Assembly: GCA_016793045.1 (NCBI GenBank)
Contig: JAEUKZ010000056.1
Span: 1-42,769, forward strand
Direction of reading: 5' to 3'
Origin: Alphaproteobacteria bacterium
GTDB taxonomy: Bacteria; Pseudomonadota; Alphaproteobacteria; CACIAM-22H2
DNA length: 42,769 nucleotides
Shown here: positions 11,653-23,558 of the stretch, in pieces
Position numbering within the stretch: the stretch's first letter is position 1
How the letters are laid out: each line of letters opens with the position of its first letter
Position numbers and translations under genes: made by a program
The notes under the pieces: model-generated
Databases searched by the model: none
Seen by the model: only the letters and a program-made list of their open reading frames with translations
What the model was told of the DNA's origin: nothing

Positions 11653-12279
11653 CTATCGAACGGAGTCGGGGATCGCTGAGGTGACGCGGGCGAGCCAGGC
11701 CGGCTCGTCGTGCAGGCTGCGCAGCTCGGCGAGCGCGTCGGCGCGATTCTGCGCACAGGCTGGCACGACGGCCTGCGCGTCGCCCTGGTCCGGCTGGCAA
11801 CATGCTTCGAGGCGCGTGCCGTTGACCGGATCGTAGAAATAGATCGAGAACATGCCCGGCATCACCGGAATCGGTCCGTCGAAGGGAATGCCGTGCGCCG
11901 CGAGCCGGCGCTGGATGGCGGCGAACTTTCTGGCGGTGACCGAAAAGGCGACGTGCTGCATGCCGCCGATCGCGTCGCGGTCCGCTGCGGCCTTGGCGCC
12001 CTTCGGGATTTCGAAATAGGCGAGAGTCGAGTCGCCGCCCATGTCGAAGAAATAGTGGCGGATCTGCTCGAAGGGCGGATTGCCGCGGTTCTTCGGCCCG
12101 GTGCCGAGACCGGGCGGGACCTTCAGCGCATGGATGAGCGGCATCCCGAGTACGCCGGCGACGAAATCGATCGTCGCCTTCATGTCGTCGGTGTTGAGCG
12201 CGAGATGATGAATGCCGCGCGTCAGGCCCGGGCCGCGCGCGGCACTAGCCTCATCCGTCGCTGCCGACGGCGAATCCAT
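11653..12279 (-). CDS. VOC-fold (glyoxalase/extradiol-dioxygenase superfamily) protein
   Basis: The product is 208 aa. A tandem beta-alpha-beta-beta-beta VOC fold carries an apparent metal triad: His in GIHHLALNTDD, His in GMQHVAFSV and Glu in NGTRLEACC. The triad H-H-E is shared by type I extradiol dioxygenases, glyoxalase I and other VOC enzymes, so ring cleavage is possible but unproven. ATG 12279 is preceded by GGGAGGAAC. It is the first gene of the transcription unit that continues into the binding protein and livHMGF, which suggests that it acts on the imported compound. It shares the second half (SIYFYDP then RLE) with the VOC protein at 12439-12969, so the two are paralogues. Confidence -1.
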   Translation of the reverse strand: MDSPSAATDEASAARGPGLTRGIHHLALNTDDMKATIDFVAGVLGMPLIHALKVPPGLGTGPKNRGNPPFEQIRHYFFDMGGDSTLAYFEIPKGAKAAADRDAIGGMQHVAFSVTARKFAAIQRRLAAHGIPFDGPIPVMPGMFSIYFYDPVNGTRLEACCQPDQGDAQAVVPACAQNRADALAELRSLHDEPAWLARVTSAIPDSVR

Positions 12280-12386: not shown

Positions 12387-12404
12387 TGCTTCGCAATCGA
12401 AGCA
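12387..12404. promoter_or_regulatory. 18-bp palindrome TGCTTCG-CAAT-CGAAGCA upstream of the VOC-liv operon
   Basis: Perfect 7-bp arms with a 4-bp spacer lie 7 bp upstream of the candidate -35 box, the position expected of an activator site. It could equally serve as a hairpin, but no U-run follows on either strand. It does not match the TTAGA-N2-TCTAA sites found at the other promoters of the island, so a different regulator is implied. Confidence -1.
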
Positions 12405-14132: not shown

Positions 14133-14630
14133 TCAGATCGGCAGGACGATCGACGTCGGCACCAGGATCGAGTCGAAAACGCAGATCTTCCTGCGGAAGC
14201 GCAGACGGCCCTCGTCGCGCACGATCTCGTCCTCGTAGCGGCCAACGTTGAGGACCCGGGTGAGCTGGTCCGGCTGGGTCTCGAACACCGCGTAGTTGGT
14301 GCGCGTCGTCACCACGCCGTCGACATGCGCGAGCAGGCGCGGCGCGGCGATGACGTGGCGGAACCAGCGCGGCACGTACATCTGCGTCTCGCGGATCGCG
14401 TGGACGCGGTCCTTGAGCATGGCGCGGCTTTCGCAGCGCACGGTGGCGAGCGGCAGGCCGCGTTCATGGTTCTCGCGCGGAATCACCGCATAGAAGCAGC
14501 GTTCGGTGAACAGTTCGGGCCAGCGCTCGTATTCGCCGCAATCGAGCGTGTCGGCGTACTCGGCGTAGAGATCGCCGATCTCCGCGCGCAGCTCGGGCGC
14601 GATCGGCCTGGCGGGGGTGGTGCCGTCCAT
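14133..14630 (-). CDS. Aromatic-ring-hydroxylating dioxygenase beta subunit
   Basis: The product is 165 aa of the SnoaL/NTF2-like fold used by ring-hydroxylating dioxygenase small subunits: YAEYADTLDCGEYERWPELFTERCFYAVIPR near the start and ETQMYVPRWFRHVIAA in the middle, with RFRRKICVFDSILVPTSI at the end. The structural subunit packs with the Rieske alpha subunit. It starts 2 bp after the alpha stop codon, so the two are co-translated. The stop is 6 bp from the convergent MetX-like gene. It is of the salicylate/anthranilate/terephthalate type by general appearance; substrate not determinable. Confidence -1.
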   Translation of the reverse strand: MDGTTPARPIAPELRAEIGDLYAEYADTLDCGEYERWPELFTERCFYAVIPRENHERGLPLATVRCESRAMLKDRVHAIRETQMYVPRWFRHVIAAPRLLAHVDGVVTTRTNYAVFETQPDQLTRVLNVGRYEDEIVRDEGRLRFRRKICVFDSILVPTSIVLPI

Positions 14631-14632
14631 CG

Positions 14633-15889
14633 TCAGATCTCCATCACCTGCCGGTAGTGCGCATAGAAGGCGCGCAGCGCCACTTCGGTGATCGTATGGT
14701 CGGCGTCGACGGTGTCGCGCCCGCCCATCTCGATCACTGCGGTCGCGTCCGGATAGGGATCGAGGCCCTGCTGGCTGATCATCATCACTTCGCTGTCGTC
14801 CATCGAGACGAAGCCCGCCGGTCCCATGAGATTGGCTTGGCGCAGGCGGCGTTCGGTCATCTCCGGCGGATCGTCGGCGTAGCCGAAGAACGTCCACAGC
14901 AGGTCGTGCGCCTCCGGCCCGCGCGGCACCATCTGGCGCATGGCGAGCGTGTTGGACTGCTGCTGCACGATCAGGTTCGGCCACAGCGTCTGCATCACCA
15001 CGGTGGCGTCGCCCGGAAACTCGCGCTGCGGCTGCAGCAATGTCGGGTCGGCGAGCTTCATGTCGGCCTTGAAGGCGCGCATTTCCTGCGTCGCCTCGTT
15101 GGCCGCCTGCTCGCCCTTGCGGTTGACCAGCACGGCATGGCGGCCGGTGTCGTCCATCTGCACCGCGGATTTCTGGTCCATGCGGAACAGGCCGAAGGTC
15201 ACCAGGAAGACGTGGAGCAGGGACGCGTGATACGGGTCCTTGATGTTCTCCATCATCAGCTTCCAGTTCGACGGGATGCGCTGGCGCGAGTAGCCGAGAA
15301 CCTTGAGCGGGCGGCCGTCGAAGACGCGGTCGAAATAGCCGAGCATCTTGGCGCCGAGAAAGTCCTCGAACGACGGCACCGCCCGATCGAAGCTCGCGAA
15401 GATCACGCCGTGGCGCACCGCGACCTCGAGCTTGGGAAGGCCGTTGGCGCCCAGGTCGAAGTCGCCGGGCATGCCGCCGTTGCCCTTGTGGCCGCGCCGG
15501 AAGGGGATGCCGATCAGCTTTCCCTGCAGGTCGTAGGTCCACTGGTGATAGGGGCAGACGAATTCCTTGGCGTTGCCGAGATGCTCCTGGCAGAGCTGCA
15601 CGCCGCGATGCGCGCAGCGGTTGGCCAGCACGTTGATCGCACCGTCGGCCCCGCGGGTGACGATAACCGGCTTGTCGCCGACGAAGCTGCGCTTGAAGTC
15701 GCCCGGGTTCGGGACCTCCGATTCGAGAGCGACGTAGTTCCAGTTCGGCCCGGCGAAGATGCGCGCCTGCTCGCGCGCGTAGATGTCCTGATCGCGGTAG
15801 ATCCAGTACGGAACGTGGCTGAAGTCGCCCGCCTTCCAGGGCGTTCGCGCGGCGGGTGCGGCAGCGGGCGCGGCAGTGTTGCCATCCAT
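14633..15889 (-). CDS. Rieske [2Fe-2S] aromatic-ring-hydroxylating dioxygenase alpha subunit
   Basis: The product is 418 aa. The Rieske centre is formed by C92 and H94 (NRCAHRGVQL) and C112 and H115 (CPYHQW), and the mononuclear iron site by NIKDPYHASLLH (bridging Asp, two His) with an Asp later in FVSMDDSEV. The catalytic-domain sequence resembles salicylate 5-hydroxylase, anthranilate and terephthalate dioxygenase large subunits, which act on benzoic-type acids. GGAGGACGCC precedes ATG 15889. The partner reductase and ferredoxin are not in the window, so electrons must come from elsewhere. The promoter carries the shared TTAGA-N2-TCTAA operator and it is divergent from the MarR gene. Confidence -1.
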   Translation of the reverse strand: MDGNTAAPAAAPAARTPWKAGDFSHVPYWIYRDQDIYAREQARIFAGPNWNYVALESEVPNPGDFKRSFVGDKPVIVTRGADGAINVLANRCAHRGVQLCQEHLGNAKEFVCPYHQWTYDLQGKLIGIPFRRGHKGNGGMPGDFDLGANGLPKLEVAVRHGVIFASFDRAVPSFEDFLGAKMLGYFDRVFDGRPLKVLGYSRQRIPSNWKLMMENIKDPYHASLLHVFLVTFGLFRMDQKSAVQMDDTGRHAVLVNRKGEQAANEATQEMRAFKADMKLADPTLLQPQREFPGDATVVMQTLWPNLIVQQQSNTLAMRQMVPRGPEAHDLLWTFFGYADDPPEMTERRLRQANLMGPAGFVSMDDSEVMMISQQGLDPYPDATAVIEMGGRDTVDADHTITEVALRAFYAHYRQVMEI

Positions 15890-15941
15890 CGGCGTCCTCC
15901 ATCGTCGCCGCGGCGCATGCGACGGCCGGCGGCGAAATTGC

Positions 15942-15974
15942 ATAGAAATCTAACCATTTTCGAAGGCGGCGCAA
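15942..15974 (-). promoter_or_regulatory. Rieske operon promoter with MarR-type operator
   Basis: On the minus strand TTGCGC (15969-15974) and TAGATT (15947-15952) are spaced by 16 bp. The imperfect palindrome ATAGA-AA-TCTAA (15942-15953, plus strand) overlaps the -10 element. The same 12-bp pattern recurs at 16637-16648 and 18727-18738, so binding of one repressor at all three is inferred. Confidence -1.
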
Positions 15975-16031
15975 GCCGCGCCTTGCGTTCGGACATTTGG
16001 TCGCGCCGCCGCCGCTCGTCTTGGGGCGGGC

Positions 16032-16060
16032 TTGGAAAGCGGCGTCCGAGCCGCTATGGT
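16032..16060 (+). promoter_or_regulatory. Candidate promoter of the MarR gene
   Basis: TTGGAA (16032-16037) and TATGGT (16055-16060) are spaced by 17 bp. The ATG at 16070 is only 9 bp after the -10, so the transcript would be leaderless or nearly so. No copy of the shared operator lies in this promoter; the nearest one (15942-15953) is 79 bp upstream of the -35. Confidence -1.
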
Positions 16061-16069
16061 CCGCAACCC

Positions 16070-16576
16070 ATGCGCGCCCGCAAAGCCCCAGCCCAGCCGC
16101 TTCGCGCCCGCACGCCGCGCCGGCTGGCGCTTTCGCTGCCGCTCGAGACGAGCGTGGGCTACCTCGTGCGGATGACCCATCGCGCCTTCACCCGCGTGCT
16201 GCAGGCCCGCATCGAGCCGCACGGCGTCACCGTCGGCATGTGGTACTTCCTGCGCGTGCTGTGGGCGGAGGACGGCATCACCCAGCGCGAGCTCTCGCAG
16301 CGCATCGGCATGATGGAGCCGACGACCGTCACCGCGCTCAACAACATGGAACGCCGCGGCCTGATCCGCCGCAGCCGCAACCCGCACGACCGCCGCAAGA
16401 TCAACATCTACCTGACGGCGAAGGGCCGCGCGCTGCGCACGCGCCTGATGCCGCTGGCGATGGAGGTCAACGCCGTGGCGCTGCAGGATTTCAGCCCGTC
16501 GGAGATCGACACGCTGCGCACGCTCCTCGGCCGCGCGCGCGGCCGCCTGGCCGCCGACGGCAGCGGCGAAGGCTAG
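16070..16576 (+). CDS. MarR family transcriptional regulator
   Basis: The product is 168 aa. A winged helix is seen in ITQRELSQRIGMMEPTTVTALNNMERRGLIRRSRNPHDRRKINIYLTAKG (given in parts: helix-turn-helix GITQRELSQRIGMMEPT, then the wing RNPHDRRKINIYLT), flanked by dimerisation helices. MarR proteins bind palindromes at promoters and are released by small phenolic or aromatic ligands. The gene is divergent from the Rieske alpha gene and precedes the TAXI receptor gene. The three TTAGA-N2-TCTAA sites of the island are the obvious target; inducer likely the imported acid or a metabolite (inference). Confidence -1.
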   Translation: MRARKAPAQPLRARTPRRLALSLPLETSVGYLVRMTHRAFTRVLQARIEPHGVTVGMWYFLRVLWAEDGITQRELSQRIGMMEPTTVTALNNMERRGLIRRSRNPHDRRKINIYLTAKGRALRTRLMPLAMEVNAVALQDFSPSEIDTLRTLLGRARGRLAADGSGEG

Positions 16577-16604
16577 CCGCGCATCCAGGCGGCGTGCTGG
16601 CGGC

Positions 16605-16648
16605 TTGACGCCCGGTCGCCTCGCTGACTACGTTACTTCGAAATCTAA
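16605..16648 (+). promoter_or_regulatory. Promoter and MarR-type operator upstream of the TAXI receptor gene
   Basis: TTGACG (16605-16610) and TACGTT (16629-16634) are spaced by 18 bp, placing the start site near 16641. The operator TTCGA-AA-TCTAA (16637-16648) covers that start site, a typical position for repression. The coding start at 16712 follows a GGAGGGAGG ribosome site. Confidence -1.
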
Positions 16649-16711
16649 TGAATCGGCCGTGGTCCGGCGTCTGCCGGGCGGACAATGCGGCCGTCTGGAG
16701 GGAGGTTCGCC

Positions 16712-17710
16712 ATGCGCAAGCTGTTGGCTTTGTTCGTGTCCGCGTTCGTCGCGGCCGCCTCATCGGCGGCGTCGGCCCAGCCCTACCAGCTCGCCCTGGG
16801 CGGCGCGTCGCCTGGCGGCTTGTGGACGCTGCTCGGCGTCGGCATCGACCGCGCGGTCAAGGCGTCCTTTCCCGGGTCGACCGTGACCTATCAGACCTCG
16901 GGCGGCGGCTTCGCCAACGTGCTGCTGCTCGAGCAGCGCCGGGTGCAGATCGCGCTCGTCCACAATGCCGAGCTGCGACTGGCGATCAACGGCGAGGAGC
17001 CGTTCCGCCAGCGCTTCGAGAACCTCGCCGTCATCGGCACGCTCTACAACTGGGCGCCGATGCAGTTCCTGCTCGCGCGCGACTTCGCGGAGCGCCACAA
17101 CATCCGCAGCTTCGAGGACATCGCGGCGCGCCGCCCGCCGCTGCGCGTCGCGCTCAACCGCCGCGGCAACATCGCGGAGATGGTCGCCGAGCGGATGTTC
17201 CGCGCCATCGGCGTCAGCAGCGAGAACATCCGCCAATGGGGCGGCACGGTCGTGCTCGCGGCGTCGGAGGAGCAGTCCGACCTGATGCGCGACCGCCGCG
17301 TCGACGGGCTGCTCAACAGCCTTTTCGTCGGCCAGCGCTCGCTGATCGAGGTCGGTCAGGCGCTGCCGGTGGTGATGCTGCCGGTCGGCCAGCCGGTGAT
17401 CGAGCGGGTGGCGCAGGAGATGGGCATCGAGGCCTATGAGATTCCCGCCGGCTCGTACCCGTTCCAGACCGAAGCCGTGCGCACGCTGACGCTCGGCGTC
17501 ATGCTGATGGCGAACCGCAATGCGATGAGCGATCAGGACGCCTACAACCTTGCGCGCGCGCTGACCGAGAACGTCGCGGTCGTCCGCGACGTCCATCCCG
17601 CGATGCGCGCGCTGACGCCGGAATTTCTGGCGCAGCAGGGTGCCGGGACCTTCCACCCCGGCGCGCGCCGCTTCTACCAGGAACGCAACCTGATCCGCAC
17701 CGGATCGTGA
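16712..17710 (+). CDS. TAXI-family solute receptor (TRAP-type periplasmic binding protein)
   Basis: The product is 332 aa with a Sec signal peptide (about residues 1-22, ending ASSAASAQ). The mature start, LALGGASPGGLWTLLGVGID, followed by the SGGGFANVLLLEQRRVQIAL stretch, is typical of TAXI proteins, which deliver carboxylates to a fused TRAP permease. No TRAP membrane gene is present in the window, so this is an orphan receptor here. The stop overlaps the GTG start of the next gene (GTGA), so translation is coupled to a 4,5-dihydroxyphthalate-decarboxylase-like protein. Expression is from the operator-controlled promoter at 16605-16648. Confidence -1.
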   Translation: MRKLLALFVSAFVAAASSAASAQPYQLALGGASPGGLWTLLGVGIDRAVKASFPGSTVTYQTSGGGFANVLLLEQRRVQIALVHNAELRLAINGEEPFRQRFENLAVIGTLYNWAPMQFLLARDFAERHNIRSFEDIAARRPPLRVALNRRGNIAEMVAERMFRAIGVSSENIRQWGGTVVLAASEEQSDLMRDRRVDGLLNSLFVGQRSLIEVGQALPVVMLPVGQPVIERVAQEMGIEAYEIPAGSYPFQTEAVRTLTLGVMLMANRNAMSDQDAYNLARALTENVAVVRDVHPAMRALTPEFLAQQGAGTFHPGARRFYQERNLIRTGS

Positions 17711-18699
17711 CGCCGCTCGCGCTCTCGGTCGCCTGCCGCGCGAGCGACCGCACGCGCGCATTGTTCGACGGCAGCGTGGCGATCGAGGGCTGCGCGGCGA
17801 GCGTCGTCGATCTCGACCCGGAGGAGGCGTTTTTCCGCGCCTTCCGCCATGCCGAGTTCGACGTGAGCGAACTCTCGCTCAGCAGCACGATGATGGCCGT
17901 CGATCGCGGCAGCTGCCCCTATGTCGCGATCCCGGCCTTCGTCAGCCGCGCGTTCCGCCATTCGGCGATCTACATCCGCACCGATCGCGGCATCCGTGCG
18001 CCGGCGGACCTGAAGGGGCGGCTCGTCGGCATTCCCGAATATCAGGTCACCGCCGCGGTCTGGGTGCGCGGCATTCTCGAGGACGAGTACGGCGTCAAGC
18101 CATCCGAGCTGCGCTGGAGGTCCGGCGGCATGGAGGAGCCGGGCCGCCACGAGAAGCTTCGCTTCACGCCGCCTGCAGGAGTCGAGATGCTGCCGATCGC
18201 CCCCGGCGCGACGCTCGCGGCGATGCTGAAGGCGGGCGAGATCGACGCGCTGGTGGCGCCGCGCCCGCCGAGCTGCTTCAGAGAGGCCGCACCGCATGTC
18301 GGCCGGCTGTTTCCCGACTTCCGCACGGTCGAGCGTGAATGGTTCGCGCGCACCGGCATCTTCCCGATCATGCATGTGATCGGCGTGCGCAGGACGCTGG
18401 TCGATCGGCACCCCTGGCTGCCCGCGTCGGTCTACAAGGCGTTCCTGCGCGCCAAGCAGGCCTGCATTCCCAAACTGTTCGACCTCAATGCTCTGCACGT
18501 ATCGCTGCCCTGGGTCGTGGCGGAGGCGGAGGCGACGCGGGCCGTCATGGGCGCCGATTTCTGGCCGTACGGCGTCGACACCTCGCGCAAGACACTGGAC
18601 GCGGTGGCGCGCTACTCGCATGCGCAGGGGCTGACCTCGCGCGTGCTGGCAGCGGAGGATCTCTTCGCCGCCACGACGATCGAAACGGTGAAGGTCTGA
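17707..18699 (+). CDS. 4,5-dihydroxyphthalate decarboxylase-like protein (periplasmic-binding-protein fold)
   Basis: The product is 330 aa, starting at GTG. It has no signal peptide, although its fold is that of periplasmic binding proteins: LACRASDRTRALFDG-like start, then DLKGRLVGIPEYQVTAAVWV and MEEPGRHEKLRF. This pattern is that of the Pht5-type 4,5-dihydroxyphthalate decarboxylases, which turn 4,5-dihydroxyphthalate into protocatechuate. Similar proteins are also annotated as ABC substrate-binding proteins. The lack of a signal peptide supports a cytoplasmic enzyme. Coupling by GTGA to the TAXI receptor suggests receptor and decarboxylase handle the same dicarboxylate (inference). Upstream residues deciding activity cannot be judged from sequence alone. 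Confidence -1.
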   Translation: MTPLALSVACRASDRTRALFDGSVAIEGCAASVVDLDPEEAFFRAFRHAEFDVSELSLSSTMMAVDRGSCPYVAIPAFVSRAFRHSAIYIRTDRGIRAPADLKGRLVGIPEYQVTAAVWVRGILEDEYGVKPSELRWRSGGMEEPGRHEKLRFTPPAGVEMLPIAPGATLAAMLKAGEIDALVAPRPPSCFREAAPHVGRLFPDFRTVEREWFARTGIFPIMHVIGVRRTLVDRHPWLPASVYKAFLRAKQACIPKLFDLNALHVSLPWVVAEAEATRAVMGADFWPYGVDTSRKTLDAVARYSHAQGLTSRVLAAEDLFAATTIETVKV

Positions 18700-18712
18700 C
18701 CGGCGGACGCTC

Positions 18713-18741
18713 TGGACAGGATATCCTTAGACATCTAAGTT
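18713..18741 (+). promoter_or_regulatory. Promoter and MarR-type operator of the carboxymuconolactone-to-enolase operon
   Basis: TGGACA (18713-18718) and TAAGTT (18736-18741) are spaced by 17 bp. The perfect palindrome CTTAGA-CA-TCTAAG (18726-18739) lies between and over the -10, so a bound protein would block RNA polymerase. The first gene starts at 18773. Confidence -1.
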
Positions 18742-18772
18742 TCGCCGCGAGGACACGCCCGATCGGACCGTC

Positions 18773-19330
18773 ATGAGCCGCCGCATTCCGCGTCTCGAAT
18801 TCGAACAGCTCGCGCCGCCGCTGCAGGAACAGCTTGCCGCGCGCGTGAAGCGTCTCGGCTATCTCGGGGAGTTCTTCAAGTGCGCCGGGCACCAGCCGGC
18901 GCTGCTCGGCCCCTTCATGACGATGACCGAAGCGTTCAAGAAGGTGCTGCCGGAACGCCTGGTCGAGGTCGGCGCGCTGACCGTCGCCGGCGTGATGAAG
19001 AACGAGTACGAGCGCAACCAGCATGAGCGGCTGTCGTTCCGCCTCGGCTTCGGCAAGGACTGGATCGCCGAAGTGAACCGTCTCGATCCCGACCGCGCGG
19101 CGCAGATGAGCGACGCCGAGAAGGCGGTGCAGCGATTCGCGATCGCGCTGATCGAGCGCAAGGGCGGCGGCGTCGATGCGGAACTCGACGCGATGATCGA
19201 CGCGATCGGCCCCGAGGCGGCGATGGCGGTGATGTTCCTGGTCGGCCGCTACGTGACCCACGCCTTCATCGTCAACGCGCTGGCGCTCGCGCCGCCGGTC
19301 AAGTCGGTCTTCGTGGAGGAGCCGCGATGA
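18773..19330 (+). CDS. Carboxymuconolactone decarboxylase family protein
   Basis: The product is 185 aa and all-helical. It has the conserved helix VEVGALTVAGVMKNEYERNQHERLSFRLGF with E and H at the places used by PcaC-type 4-carboxymuconolactone decarboxylases. No CxxC is present, so it is not an AhpD-type peroxidase. The family removes CO2 from muconolactone derivatives or plays related roles in aromatic breakdown. It is the first gene of the long catabolic operon; its ATG at 18773 lacks a strong ribosome site. Its stop overlaps the next start (ATGA). Confidence -1.
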   Translation: MSRRIPRLEFEQLAPPLQEQLAARVKRLGYLGEFFKCAGHQPALLGPFMTMTEAFKKVLPERLVEVGALTVAGVMKNEYERNQHERLSFRLGFGKDWIAEVNRLDPDRAAQMSDAEKAVQRFAIALIERKGGGVDAELDAMIDAIGPEAAMAVMFLVGRYVTHAFIVNALALAPPVKSVFVEEPR

Positions 19331-20325
19331 CCGCCGAACCGATCTGGATCGACGAGGCCGACGTTGTCCGCCTGATGCATCTGGGCGAGGCGATTCCCGC
19401 GCTCGAGCGCGGCCTCGCCGAGGAAGCCGCGGGCCGCGCCAAGAACCTGGAGAAGACCGCGCAGCATTGGGGCAAGGGCTCCAACATGCACGCGATCGGC
19501 GCGGTCTACGACGGCGCGGGCATCTTCGGCACCAAGACCTGGGGCCATACCGAGCACGGCTCGACGCCGCTGCTCATCCTGTGGGATGCCGGCAACGGCC
19601 GCCTGCTGGCGATCGTCGAGGCCTTCGCACTCGGCCAGATGCGCACCGGCGCGATGTCCGGCGTCGGCACGCGCTGGATGTCGGCCCCGGAAGCCGACGA
19701 ACTCGCGGTCGTCGGCACCGGCAAGCAGGCGACGACGCAGGTCGCCGCGGTCGTTGCGGTGCGGCCGATCCGCCGCATTCGCGTCTGGGGGCCGACGCCC
19801 GAGCATCGCATGGCCTTCGCCGAGAAGGTCCGCGCCAGCCATCCCGGCATCGAGGTCGTGACGGCGGAAAGCTGCGCCGCCGCGGTCAAGGATGCGCCGA
19901 TCGTCACCCTGATCACGCGGGCGCGCCATCCCGTGGTCAATGCTGCGATGCTTGCGCGCGGCGCGCATGTCAACGCCGCCGGCGCGATCACCGCGGAGCG
20001 GCGCGAGTTCGACGAGGACCTGTTCCCGCGCGCCGACCTGGTCGCGGTCGACTCGCTGGAGACCGCGCGCCGCCAGAGCTCGGAGTTCATGGATTGGTAC
20101 GGCGAGGCGCTCGGCGACGAATGGGCCGGGGTGCGCCGGATATGCGATCTCGTCGGCAAGGGCGATGCACGCCCCGCGAACTGCGACCTGACGATCTTCA
20201 AGCCGATGGGGATGGGCATTTCCGACCTCGCCCTCGGCATCGAGATCCTCGCGCGCGCGCGCAAGGCGGGCGCAGGCCGCGCCATGCCGCATCCGCAGCG
20301 CATCCCGCCGCGGCTGCACGAATAG
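19327..20325 (+). CDS. Ornithine cyclodeaminase / mu-crystallin family protein
   Basis: The product is 332 aa. It shows the family pattern: FALGQMRTGAMSGVGTRWM (substrate and RTGA loop), a Rossmann nucleotide site in ELAVVGTGKQATTQV, and FKPMGMGISDLALG near the C-terminus. Members include ornithine cyclodeaminase, alanine dehydrogenase and cyclic imino-acid reductases that use NAD(P). In this catabolic operon an imine, amino-acid or oxo-acid reductase role is possible, and would hint at nitrogen in the substrate (inference). ATG overlaps the preceding stop. Confidence -1.
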   Translation: MTAEPIWIDEADVVRLMHLGEAIPALERGLAEEAAGRAKNLEKTAQHWGKGSNMHAIGAVYDGAGIFGTKTWGHTEHGSTPLLILWDAGNGRLLAIVEAFALGQMRTGAMSGVGTRWMSAPEADELAVVGTGKQATTQVAAVVAVRPIRRIRVWGPTPEHRMAFAEKVRASHPGIEVVTAESCAAAVKDAPIVTLITRARHPVVNAAMLARGAHVNAAGAITAERREFDEDLFPRADLVAVDSLETARRQSSEFMDWYGEALGDEWAGVRRICDLVGKGDARPANCDLTIFKPMGMGISDLALGIEILARARKAGAGRAMPHPQRIPPRLHE

Positions 20326-20356: not shown

Positions 20357-21454
20357 ATGACGAACGTGAAGATGATCGACGTCACCGGTGCCGCCGCCGC
20401 GCCGCTCGACCTGTGGGAGCCGGTCACGGTCACACGCGAACAGATCGCGGCCGAGGCCGGGCGCCTCGCCGACCTGCCGCGGCCGGCCAATGGGCGGCGC
20501 GAGACGATGTTCGTCCATCCGCGCGCGACCGCGCCGGGCCTCGGCTTCGCGCCCGGCATCCGCGTCACGCTCAGCGTGCTCAAGCCCGGCGAGCGCTCCG
20601 AGCCGATCCGCCACAACTCGACGCAGGTCAATTTCTGCATCCGCGGCGGCGGCCACAGCGTCGTCGCCGGCAAGCGCTTCGATTTCGGCCAGTACGACGT
20701 CTGGAACACGCCGTCGTTCGCACCCTACTGGCACGTCAACGACGGCAAGGACCTGCAGGTCCGCCTCACCTACTCGAACGCGGCACTGCTCGAGAAGATG
20801 AACGTCCATGTCGTCGAGGAGAACCCGAAGCTCGTCGAGGCGGTGGAGGAGGACGTGGCGCACCGCGACGATCCGCGCCGCAAGAGCCCCTACGGCACCT
20901 TCCAGCTGACGGAGGACGGCGCCTGGATGATGCCCTACGAACGGCTGATCAATCCGCCGGCGGTCGAATCGAAGGCGCTGCACTGGCCGTGGCAGCAGGT
21001 GAAGAGCCATCTCGACAAGCTCGAGGCGCTGGGCAAGGACTATATCGGGCGCCGGCTCTACCTGCTCTACAACCCGATGACCGGCCGCACCAACGGCACG
21101 ACGCCGAACTTCTTCGCGACGATGACGATCCGCCCCCCGAAGATCGTCGACCGCCCGCACCGCCACACTTCTGCGGCGATCAACTACTACTTCCACGGTT
21201 CGGGCCGCAGTACGGTGGAAAAGAAGGTCTACGAGTGGCGTGCCGGCGATCTGATGCTGTCGGCGCCCGGTTGGGGCGTCCACAACCACGCTTCGTACGA
21301 CGACCATGTCTATGAGCTCACGGTGCAGGATCAGCCGCTCAACATCGCGATGGAATCGCTGCTGTGGCAGGAAGACCTGAAGCTGCCGGCGGCGGTGCTC
21401 GGCGCCGAGGTCGGCTTCGGCACCAATCGCGGCAAGCTCGGGGCGGCGGAATGA
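20357..21454 (+). CDS. Bicupin dioxygenase-like protein (gentisate-dioxygenase-type)
   Basis: The product is 365 aa with two cupin domains. The first (about 70-145) has only H86 in PIRHNSTQVNF and a WHVND histidine; the second (about 255-330) has the canonical metal motif H268-R-H270 (DRPHRHTSAAINYYFHGSG) and a late histidine pair in GWGVHNHAS. The overall length and layout fit gentisate and salicylate 1,2-dioxygenases, which cleave an aromatic ring with oxygen, but in those the HRH motif is usually in the N-terminal cupin. GGAGGAAAC precedes ATG 20357. The stop overlaps the DHDPS-family start (ATGA). Ring-cleavage is the best guess for function. Confidence -1.
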   Translation: MTNVKMIDVTGAAAAPLDLWEPVTVTREQIAAEAGRLADLPRPANGRRETMFVHPRATAPGLGFAPGIRVTLSVLKPGERSEPIRHNSTQVNFCIRGGGHSVVAGKRFDFGQYDVWNTPSFAPYWHVNDGKDLQVRLTYSNAALLEKMNVHVVEENPKLVEAVEEDVAHRDDPRRKSPYGTFQLTEDGAWMMPYERLINPPAVESKALHWPWQQVKSHLDKLEALGKDYIGRRLYLLYNPMTGRTNGTTPNFFATMTIRPPKIVDRPHRHTSAAINYYFHGSGRSTVEKKVYEWRAGDLMLSAPGWGVHNHASYDDHVYELTVQDQPLNIAMESLLWQEDLKLPAAVLGAEVGFGTNRGKLGAAE

Positions 21455-22371
21455 TCGCGCTGAGGCCGGACGAACTGCGCGGCTCGATCCCGCCGCTGGT
21501 GACGCCGTTCAAGGACGGCGCGGTCGACATTCCGACCTTCGAACGGCTGGTCGAGCGGCAGATCGCCGAGGGCTCGCACGGCGTGCTGATCACCGGCACG
21601 ACCGCGGAGCCGAGCACGCTGACGACCGCCGAGCGCATCAAGCTGTTCGAGGTCGCGGTGAAGGTGGCCAAGGGCCGCGTGCCGGTGGTCGCCGCACCGG
21701 GCGGGCAGAGTCACGCCGACACGGTGGAGATGGTGGCGGGCGCCGAGAAGGCGGGCGTCGACGCGATGCTGGTGGTGACGCCTTACTTTCTGCGGCCGCC
21801 GCAGCGCGGGCTGGTCGAATACTACGTCGACATCGGCAGGCGCACCGCCCTGCCGCTGATGATCTACCACATCCCCGGCCGCGCCGCGGTCAACGTCACC
21901 GTCGACACCGTCGCGGCGATCGCCGAGCGTGCGCCCAATCTCGTCGGCATCAAGCATGCCGTGGTCGATCTCGACTTCGCGACGCAGCTGCTCAAGCGCA
22001 TGGGGATGGAGTTCCGCATTTTCGTCGGCCTCGAGGAACTGAGCTTCCCGATGATGGCGGTCGGCGCGTGCGGGCTGATGAACGCGGTCGGCAATCTGCT
22101 GCCCAGGCGCGTCGCGGAACTCTGCGAGCGCGTGTGGGCGAACGATCTGGCCGGCGCGCGGGCGATCCATTTCGAGCTCGACGAGCTCAACCGCGCGGTG
22201 TTCTTCGACACCAACCCCATCCCGATGAAGTACATGATGCGCCGCCTCGGCATCCTGCCCAACAACGAGCACCGGCTGCCGATGCTGCCGGCGACGGCCG
22301 AGCTTGAAGCGCGGCTCGACGGCGTGCTGGCCCGCGCCGGCCTCATCAAGCTGAAGCAGGCCGCCGAATAG
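21451..22371 (+). CDS. DHDPS / N-acetylneuraminate lyase family aldolase or hydratase
   Basis: The product is 306 aa of the class I aldolase (beta/alpha)8 type. Schiff-base K168 is in LVGIKHAVVD, Y139 in MIYHIPGRAAVN, and the GTT motif in LITGTTAEPSTLT. Members condense or cleave pyruvate with an aldehyde, or dehydrate keto-acids (for example trans-o-hydroxybenzylidenepyruvate hydratase-aldolase). In the operon it could split a ring-cleavage product to pyruvate plus an aldehyde (inference). Start ATG overlaps the bicupin stop. Confidence -1.
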   Translation: MIALRPDELRGSIPPLVTPFKDGAVDIPTFERLVERQIAEGSHGVLITGTTAEPSTLTTAERIKLFEVAVKVAKGRVPVVAAPGGQSHADTVEMVAGAEKAGVDAMLVVTPYFLRPPQRGLVEYYVDIGRRTALPLMIYHIPGRAAVNVTVDTVAAIAERAPNLVGIKHAVVDLDFATQLLKRMGMEFRIFVGLEELSFPMMAVGACGLMNAVGNLLPRRVAELCERVWANDLAGARAIHFELDELNRAVFFDTNPIPMKYMMRRLGILPNNEHRLPMLPATAELEARLDGVLARAGLIKLKQAAE

Positions 22372-22394: not shown

Positions 22395-23558
22395 ATGGCG
22401 CAACAGCAGGACGCTTTCGTCGGCACGGCGATGCCGCAGGATTCGACGCTGCCGACGGTGCTCACCGGCCAGCATTTCGAAGGGCTGGAGAACTTCTTCC
22501 GCACCTTCTGCGTGCGCAACGACGACAAGATGGTGTTCCTGTGCGATCGCAAGCTCGATCCGCAGGTCATCGCGGCGATCTGCGGCGTGGCGCGCGCGCG
22601 CGGCGTCAAGCCGTGGGTGATCATGAGCGACACCACCCAGCACACCGCGATCCCGGACGAGGTGCGGCCGATCCTCGAAAAGGCCACCTTCGTCGTCTCG
22701 ACCTGGTTCTGCTCGATCATCGATCCGTTCTGCATCGCGCTGCGCAAGAAGGGTCAGCGCTGGGTCAAGATCACGTATTTCCGTGACATCAAGCTGCTCG
22801 ACACGCCGCAGGCGCGCTTCCCGATCGACATCGTGGGAGAGATCATCCGCCAGACCGCTTCGCTCTATCCCGAAGGCAGCGCGTTCGACCTGCGCTTCTC
22901 GGATTCGCGCGGCACCGACTTCACCATCCCGTTCACCGCCGACATGCGCCAGACGATGCTCAAGTCGAACCGCTGGCGCGGCAAGATGACCCCGGAGGAG
23001 CCCGGCTCCTACGTCCATTTCCTGCCGACGCACGGGCCCAATCTCTACGACCGCACCAGCGTCAACGACGACGATCAGGTGATGGTGCCGATGCATGGCA
23101 CCGTCTATCCGTACTGGGCGGTGGGCTTCCCGCGCCCGTTCGAGAGCCGCATCGGCGTCGTCTTCGAGAAGGACCAGATCACCCGCGTCGACGGCTCGGG
23201 CGAGGAGGCGGAGATCCTGCGCGACATGCTGGTCGGCGGCAAGCTGATCGAACTCGGCTGCGGCTTCAACCCGAAGGCGCCGCGCCGCACCGTCTATCCC
23301 GCCGGCTCGAACTCGCCGGGGGCGCTCCATTTCGGCATCGATCTCGCCAAGCCTTGCGACTACATCCGCAAGGTGATGCCGGAATGGGAGGAGCCGCCGG
23401 TGCACATGGACCTGATCACCTTCGATTCCACCGTGACGGCGGGCAATGCGACGCTGATCGACAAGGGATTCCTGCGGGCGCTGCGCGCGCCCTCGGTGGT
23501 CGAGTTGGCGAAGCGTTACGGCGATCCGGTGGATCTGCTCGAAAGCTGGCCGAACTGA
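22395..23558 (+). CDS. M29-like / NicX-related metalloenzyme
   Basis: The product is 387 aa. Likely metal ligands are E286 (LIELGCGFNPKAP), H312 (GALHFGID) and H337/D339 (VHMDLITF). The HMD motif and the EAEILRDM region resemble both M29 aminopeptidases and NicX, the 2,5-dihydroxypyridine dioxygenase. Where NicX uses a histidine before the GWG motif, this protein has E286, as in M29 peptidases. It may be an amidohydrolase, peptidase or ring-opening enzyme. A good GGAGGGGAG ribosome site precedes ATG 22395; it is 23 bp after the aldolase. It is the first member of this fold I see in the cluster and its substrate is unknown. Confidence -1.
   Translation: MAQQQDAFVGTAMPQDSTLPTVLTGQHFEGLENFFRTFCVRNDDKMVFLCDRKLDPQVIAAICGVARARGVKPWVIMSDTTQHTAIPDEVRPILEKATFVVSTWFCSIIDPFCIALRKKGQRWVKITYFRDIKLLDTPQARFPIDIVGEIIRQTASLYPEGSAFDLRFSDSRGTDFTIPFTADMRQTMLKSNRWRGKMTPEEPGSYVHFLPTHGPNLYDRTSVNDDDQVMVPMHGTVYPYWAVGFPRPFESRIGVVFEKDQITRVDGSGEEAEILRDMLVGGKLIELGCGFNPKAPRRTVYPAGSNSPGALHFGIDLAKPCDYIRKVMPEWEEPPVHMDLITFDSTVTAGNATLIDKGFLRALRAPSVVELAKRYGDPVDLLESWPN

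Follow-up and report, generated by a model that had tools for sequence, protein, structure and literature searches.

Gene content of the island

The window, i.e., the whole stretch of 42,769 nucleotides of alphaproteobacterial DNA analysed here, contains a gene for a MarR-family regulator of 168 amino acids (16070-16576, plus strand). The product matches Pfam MarR_2 with an E-value of 5.5e-12, as expected from the original prediction of a MarR gene at this position, and its scores lie above the curated cut-offs of both MarR_2 (46.1 bits; cut-off 27) and MarR (45.4 bits; cut-off 24.6). Its relatives in the PDB include SlyA, CouR and PcaV. None of the NCBIfam equivalog models reaches its cut-off for this protein, among them those of SlyA (NF002926; 44.6 bits, cut-off 120) and HpaR (TIGR02337; 51.3 bits, cut-off 121.2). 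By the NCBI cut-off, it does not qualify as an orthologue of SlyA. Its recognition-helix region is MMEPTTVTALNNMERR, and by this helix it belongs to the MMEPTTV class.

On the minus strand, divergent from the MarR gene, are the genes for the alpha and beta subunits of a Rieske oxygenase. The closest solved relative of the alpha subunit (14633-15889) is the large subunit of salicylate 5-hydroxylase (7c8z, E 1.3e-141); its AndAc-like NCBIfam match is below the cut-off. The beta subunit (14133-14630) is assigned to Pfam SnoaL_4 / Ring_hydroxyl_B.

On the plus strand, the MarR gene is followed by a gene for a TAXI-family TRAP solute-binding protein (16712-17710; TIGR02122, above cut-off). Relatives of this gene adjoin a gene for a DctM permease. 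No DctM gene was found among the neighbouring genes examined here; elsewhere in the genome there are about 26 DctM matches. The TAXI protein is possibly an orphan binding protein. The next gene (17707-18699, plus strand) encodes a homologue of 4,5-dihydroxyphthalate decarboxylase, which matches the solved enzyme over its full length (9jp7, E 3.6e-103, residues 2-329). This assignment is by homology. Because of the full-length match, we regard the product as an enzyme despite a Pfam hint of a binding protein, and its reading as an 'NMT1' or transport binding protein was discarded.

A further plus-strand operon opens with a carboxymuconolactone-decarboxylase-like (CMD) protein (18773-19330), whose match to CMD is weak (E 0.007); the homologue in the related locus L126 scores above the cut-off. 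It continues with a protein of the ornithine cyclodeaminase (OCD) / mu-crystallin family (19327-20325; Pfam E 3.6e-44), a two-cupin enzyme (20357-21454; 3bu7, E 5e-18) and an aldolase or lyase of the DHDPS family (21451-22371; Pfam E 1.7e-68). The cupin enzyme, with relatives 66-76% identical in other families, scores 51.8 bits against the gentisate 1,2-dioxygenase model TIGR02272 (cut-off 442.1), and is therefore taken as a distant relative and referred to as gentisate-1,2-dioxygenase-like. Next on the same strand is a conserved protein of 387 residues (22395-23558) with no Pfam, NCBIfam or PDB match; copies 69-72% identical are found beside MarR genes in loci L056 and L094. The original prediction had spoken of an undescribed pathway. 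This description needs qualifying, in that several of the enzymes resemble known steps of salicylate/gentisate and phthalate degradation, and the island is also present in other Alphaproteobacteria. In four loci of one family (f105; L127, L128, L129 and L130), a MarR relative lies directly beside cupin and DHDPS genes with no Rieske genes nearby, a minimal form of the island.

Three palindromes around the MarR gene

The three 12-bp palindromes of the form TTAGA-N2-TCTAA that had been predicted in the promoters of the island are all present, without assigned strand. Predicted operator 1, ATAGAAATCTAA (15942-15953), is in the gap between the divergent Rieske and MarR genes and has one mismatch. 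Predicted operator 2, TTCGAAATCTAA (16637-16648), also with one mismatch, is between the MarR and TAXI genes, and predicted operator 3, TTAGACATCTAA (18727-18738), is free of mismatches and lies ahead of the CMD-OCD-cupin-aldolase operon, in a gap of 73 bp. That is, all three are intergenic, in the gaps that flank the MarR gene or open the next operon. Operator 1 precedes the MarR start by 117 bp; because the ATG at 15889 is preceded by a ribosome-binding site and is thus the likeliest Rieske start, it would be 53-64 bp upstream of that gene as well.

When all 462 contigs of the genome (5.34 Mb) were searched for TTAGA-N2-TCTAA with up to one mismatch, exactly three matches were returned, all of them the intergenic sites in the window, while the same pattern read backwards gave 21. 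The many random copies in coding regions that had been named beforehand as evidence against the prediction did not occur. Site 3 is also the sole exact match in the genome to the looser pattern TTAG-N4-CTAA.

To correct for multiple looking, we compared the three gaps (15890-16069, 16577-16711 and 18700-18772) for all 13,312 palindromic pentamer patterns, i.e., 1,024 half-sites with 13 spacers (0-12), with up to one mismatch allowed. A single pattern, TTAGA-N2-TCTAA, was common to all three. Chance likeness might still be argued from the mismatch in two of the three sites, and from the fact that some common palindrome pattern arose in 8.8% of the dinucleotide-shuffled trios of gaps; a pattern with at least four A/T letters, however, arose in 0 of 1000 shuffles, and chance would not lead one to expect all three genome-wide matches in one window.

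Probable operators across MarR relatives

The comparison was extended to about 90 related genomes, from which 80 loci encoding MarR homologues were fetched. In an unbiased enumeration of palindromes in these loci, covering every 4-base half-site with spacers of 0-8, the most over-represented was TTAG-N4-CTAA, with 72 observed against 0.23 expected; CTTAG-N4-CTAAG headed the 5-base list, with 22 against 0.02. As the loci are related, these counts are not independent events, and in the tree the carriers of the palindrome span many families. For a symmetrical matrix, 66 sites of other genomes served as the training set, with the window left out. In the window, its three highest scores are those of site 3 (24.8), site 2 (23.7) and site 1 (21.5), followed by 15.8 for a place at 12390 and 5.7 for the next. 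The confinement of the sites within the genome, the enumeration in homologue loci and the matrix ranks together effectively refute chance, to which we assign next to no probability.

The frequency of the exact site differs between helix classes. Of 32 loci of the GTMEPTT class, which span many families, 30 have it nearby, against 2 of 42 loci of the MMEPTTV class, to which the window belongs. Other loci of the latter class have forms with one mismatch, e.g., TTGGAATTCTAA and TTCGCAAGCTAA, and most Azospirillum relatives have no exact site. The rarity of the exact site in this class, along with the one-base departures in sites 1 and 2, counts against the operator model. In other genomes, the exact palindrome is again concentrated at the MarR locus: in G413 it occurs once in 6 Mb, at that locus; in G414 it occurs once genome-wide, and the MarR locus also has one; and in G406 four of six copies are at the MarR locus. 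Several loci have operators in pairs, either about 61-62 bp and 113-124 bp apart (L049, L061, L093, L098 and other Hyphomicrobiales loci) or 31 bp apart (L023, L030, L031, L037). These spacings are in most cases near whole helical turns, which suggests cooperative or looped binding. Inspection of the window by eye revealed no partner sites in tandem, 31 or 62 bp away.

The positions of the sites relative to particular genes are conserved as well. In the 5.4-Mb genome G023, the 12-mer TTCGAAATCTAA recurs identically between the MarR and TAXI genes (L131:9279), and this copy and the only two exact sites of the genome are all within the MarR-TAXI-decarboxylase locus, which the two exact sites flank. 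In G237, a gentisate-dioxygenase-like gene has the sole exact site of the genome about 130-140 bp upstream of its matched region, and a Rieske gene with 62% identity to that of the window is preceded by TTTGATATCTAA, which has one mismatch. In the tree, the MarR protein of L087 groups with the window protein (97/87 at the fork with L022), and in this locus TTTGCTTGCTAA is located between divergent cupin and Rieske genes. In G023 and in GTMEPTT-class relatives, TTAG-N4-CTAA flanks a set of genes for a LigXa_C-type Rieske oxygenase, a ferredoxin reductase, a GFO/IDH/MocA dehydrogenase, a decarboxylase and a TAXI-DctM transporter. From the family membership of these genes and the general make-up of the Pht enzyme set, we take them to encode a phthalate 4,5-dioxygenase pathway.

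Islands with a different helix and a different putative operator

Loci L094 and L126 retain nearly the whole island, i.e., the Rieske pair and the TAXI, CMD, OCD, cupin and DHDPS genes, and their MarR proteins have a different recognition helix (IMTPRTVTALNDLE in L094). TTAG-N4-CTAA is absent from both loci. All four equivalent gaps contain instead, with up to one mismatch, the palindrome ATTCG-N8-CGAAT (L094:9805 and 13686; L126:10557 and 14432); any pattern common to four gaps arose in 0.7% of shuffles. Judged by these sequences, regulator and operator seem to have changed together, at positions that were kept.

This apparent joint change speaks for MarR itself as the protein that reads the sites. 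A regulator encoded elsewhere could in principle bind the palindromes with the adjoining MarR as a bystander, given that at least 15 MarR-like stretches are present in the genome. Such a regulator would, however, have to account for sites confined genome-wide to the MarR locus, for the linkage of operator and MarR gene across many families, and for an operator that differs along with the recognition helix in L094 and L126; we consider it very improbable.

A broader reading, to which we give somewhat less than even chances, is that a widespread alphaproteobacterial MarR subfamily runs phthalate-type and salicylate/gentisate-type pathways, and that in part of it the operator (TTAG-N4-CTAA or ATTCG-N8-CGAAT) has been exchanged with the helix while promoters and pathway were kept. 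Under this tentative reading, the pathway in the window would combine an oxygenase similar to salicylate 5-hydroxylase with a decarboxylase of the phthalate type and a dioxygenase distantly related to the gentisate type.

Promoter context and a candidate fourth operator

The original prediction had each palindrome overlapping or abutting a promoter. A scan for terminators found none. A consensus scan found no consensus sigma-70 promoters either, so that the overlap with -35 and -10 elements rests on inspection by eye. By eye, TTGACG-N18-TACGTT is just upstream of site 2 and TGGACA-N17-TAAGTT spans site 3. Sites 1-3 appear to be placed on or inside promoter elements, whose exact overlap with the sites we infer. 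The promoter at site 3 could be an internal one and not that of a separate operon.

The fourth-ranked place in the matrix scan is TTCGCAATCGAA (12390-12401, without assigned strand), the core of an 18-bp palindrome, TGCTTCGCAATCGAAGCA (12387-12404), with a TTCG half-site. It lies 111 bp upstream of a minus-strand gene for a VOC-family protein (11653-12279; Pfam Glyoxalase), which opens an ABC-transporter operon with Peripla_BP_6 and BPD_transp_2 (Pfam) genes downstream, and just upstream of the -35-like element in TTGACC-N17-TTTCAT. Because CTTCGNNNNCGAAG is found 46 times in the genome, this site is only a lead; perhaps it puts a fourth transcription unit under MarR, as a weak candidate.

The place of this candidate upstream of a -35-like element is one expected of an activator, and the operator is of the type used by SlyA, which both represses and counter-silences. 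MarR might therefore act through the palindromes mainly as an activator or counter-silencer, in the manner of SlyA and RovA. We judge this unlikely, since sites 1-3 appear on or inside promoter elements in compact, locus-specific regulons, whereas the described cases of counter-silencing concern genes that Enterobacteriaceae acquired horizontally. From the positions of the sites on plausible core promoters, and by analogy, we infer repression rather than activation.

Proposed mechanism of regulation

The original prediction of one MarR regulator that serves three transcription units through a shared palindrome is strongly supported by the genome-wide uniqueness of the sites, the operator recovered without bias from the subfamily and the matrix ranking, and also by the conserved sites at MarR/TAXI, Rieske and gentisate-dioxygenase-like promoters and the operator change linked to the helix. 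The model we favour, with high confidence as a whole, is that of a local MarR repressor that acts on SlyA-type palindromes and is released by a ligand. A dimer of the MarR protein (16070-16576) would bind the TTAG-N4-CTAA palindromes at 15942, 16637 and 18727, with the third half-site position relaxed. Bound MarR would most likely block RNA polymerase at three promoters, namely those of the Rieske oxygenase operon, the TAXI/decarboxylase operon and the CMD-OCD-gentisate-dioxygenase-like-DHDPS operon; through site 1 it would perhaps also act on its own divergent promoter, i.e., autoregulation is possible. An aromatic carboxylic acid or a pathway intermediate would most likely free MarR, and the release would turn on uptake, ring hydroxylation, decarboxylation and ring cleavage together. 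That the ligand is most likely an aromatic carboxylate is suggested by the enzyme likenesses in the window and the phthalate-type sets in relatives.

For an alphaproteobacterium that is uncultured or little studied, the analysis would define a regulon, and the family-wide operator model can be used across many genomes to flag catabolic genes of the phthalate and gentisate types. The apparent natural co-change of regulator and operator would be useful for work on MarR specificity and on biosensors for aromatic acids.

Comparison with known systems

In the open-access literature, the coverage of which is incomplete, we found no account of a MarR protein that has TTAG-N4-CTAA as its operator and regulates phthalate or salicylate/gentisate operons. 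The system is nonetheless well supported as a familiar kind of switch, a MarR regulon with a SlyA-type operator, that is new in its members. The operator consensus of SlyA is TTAGCAAGCTAA, also given as TTAN6TAA (PMC5797941). SlyA is an autorepressor that binds in the region of its own promoter, and salicylate inhibits it (PMC6401476). The window sites conform to this operator type (TTA-N6-TAA / TTAG-N4-CTAA), site 3 exactly and sites 1 and 2 with one mismatch. The window system thus shares half-site, spacing, the 12-bp palindrome and the MarR fold with SlyA of Salmonella and E. coli. SlyA, however, is a global regulator and counter-silencer, whereas the window MarR is bound to its locus beside catabolic genes, and SlyA structures are only distant matches to it (3q5f, E 1.5e-7).

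A second likeness is to CouR, PcaV and HpaR, repressors of aromatic catabolism. Common to them and the window are a MarR protein beside catabolic operons and its presumed release by a pathway compound; the structures of CouR and PcaV match the window protein, as does the HpaR model below its cut-off. The differences are that the window protein reaches no equivalog cut-off and that the enzymes are others. A third likeness is to MarR genes of Hyphomicrobiales that adjoin phthalate 4,5-dioxygenase clusters (e.g., L098 from Zhengella mangrovi, and G023/L131), with which the window shares the operator family, the TAXI gene and a gene of the 4,5-dihydroxyphthalate decarboxylase type. Those loci carry an oxygenase, a reductase and a dehydrogenase of the Pht type, while the window, unlike them, combines a salicylate-5-hydroxylase-like Rieske pair with a gentisate-type cupin and a MarR of the MMEPTTV helix class.
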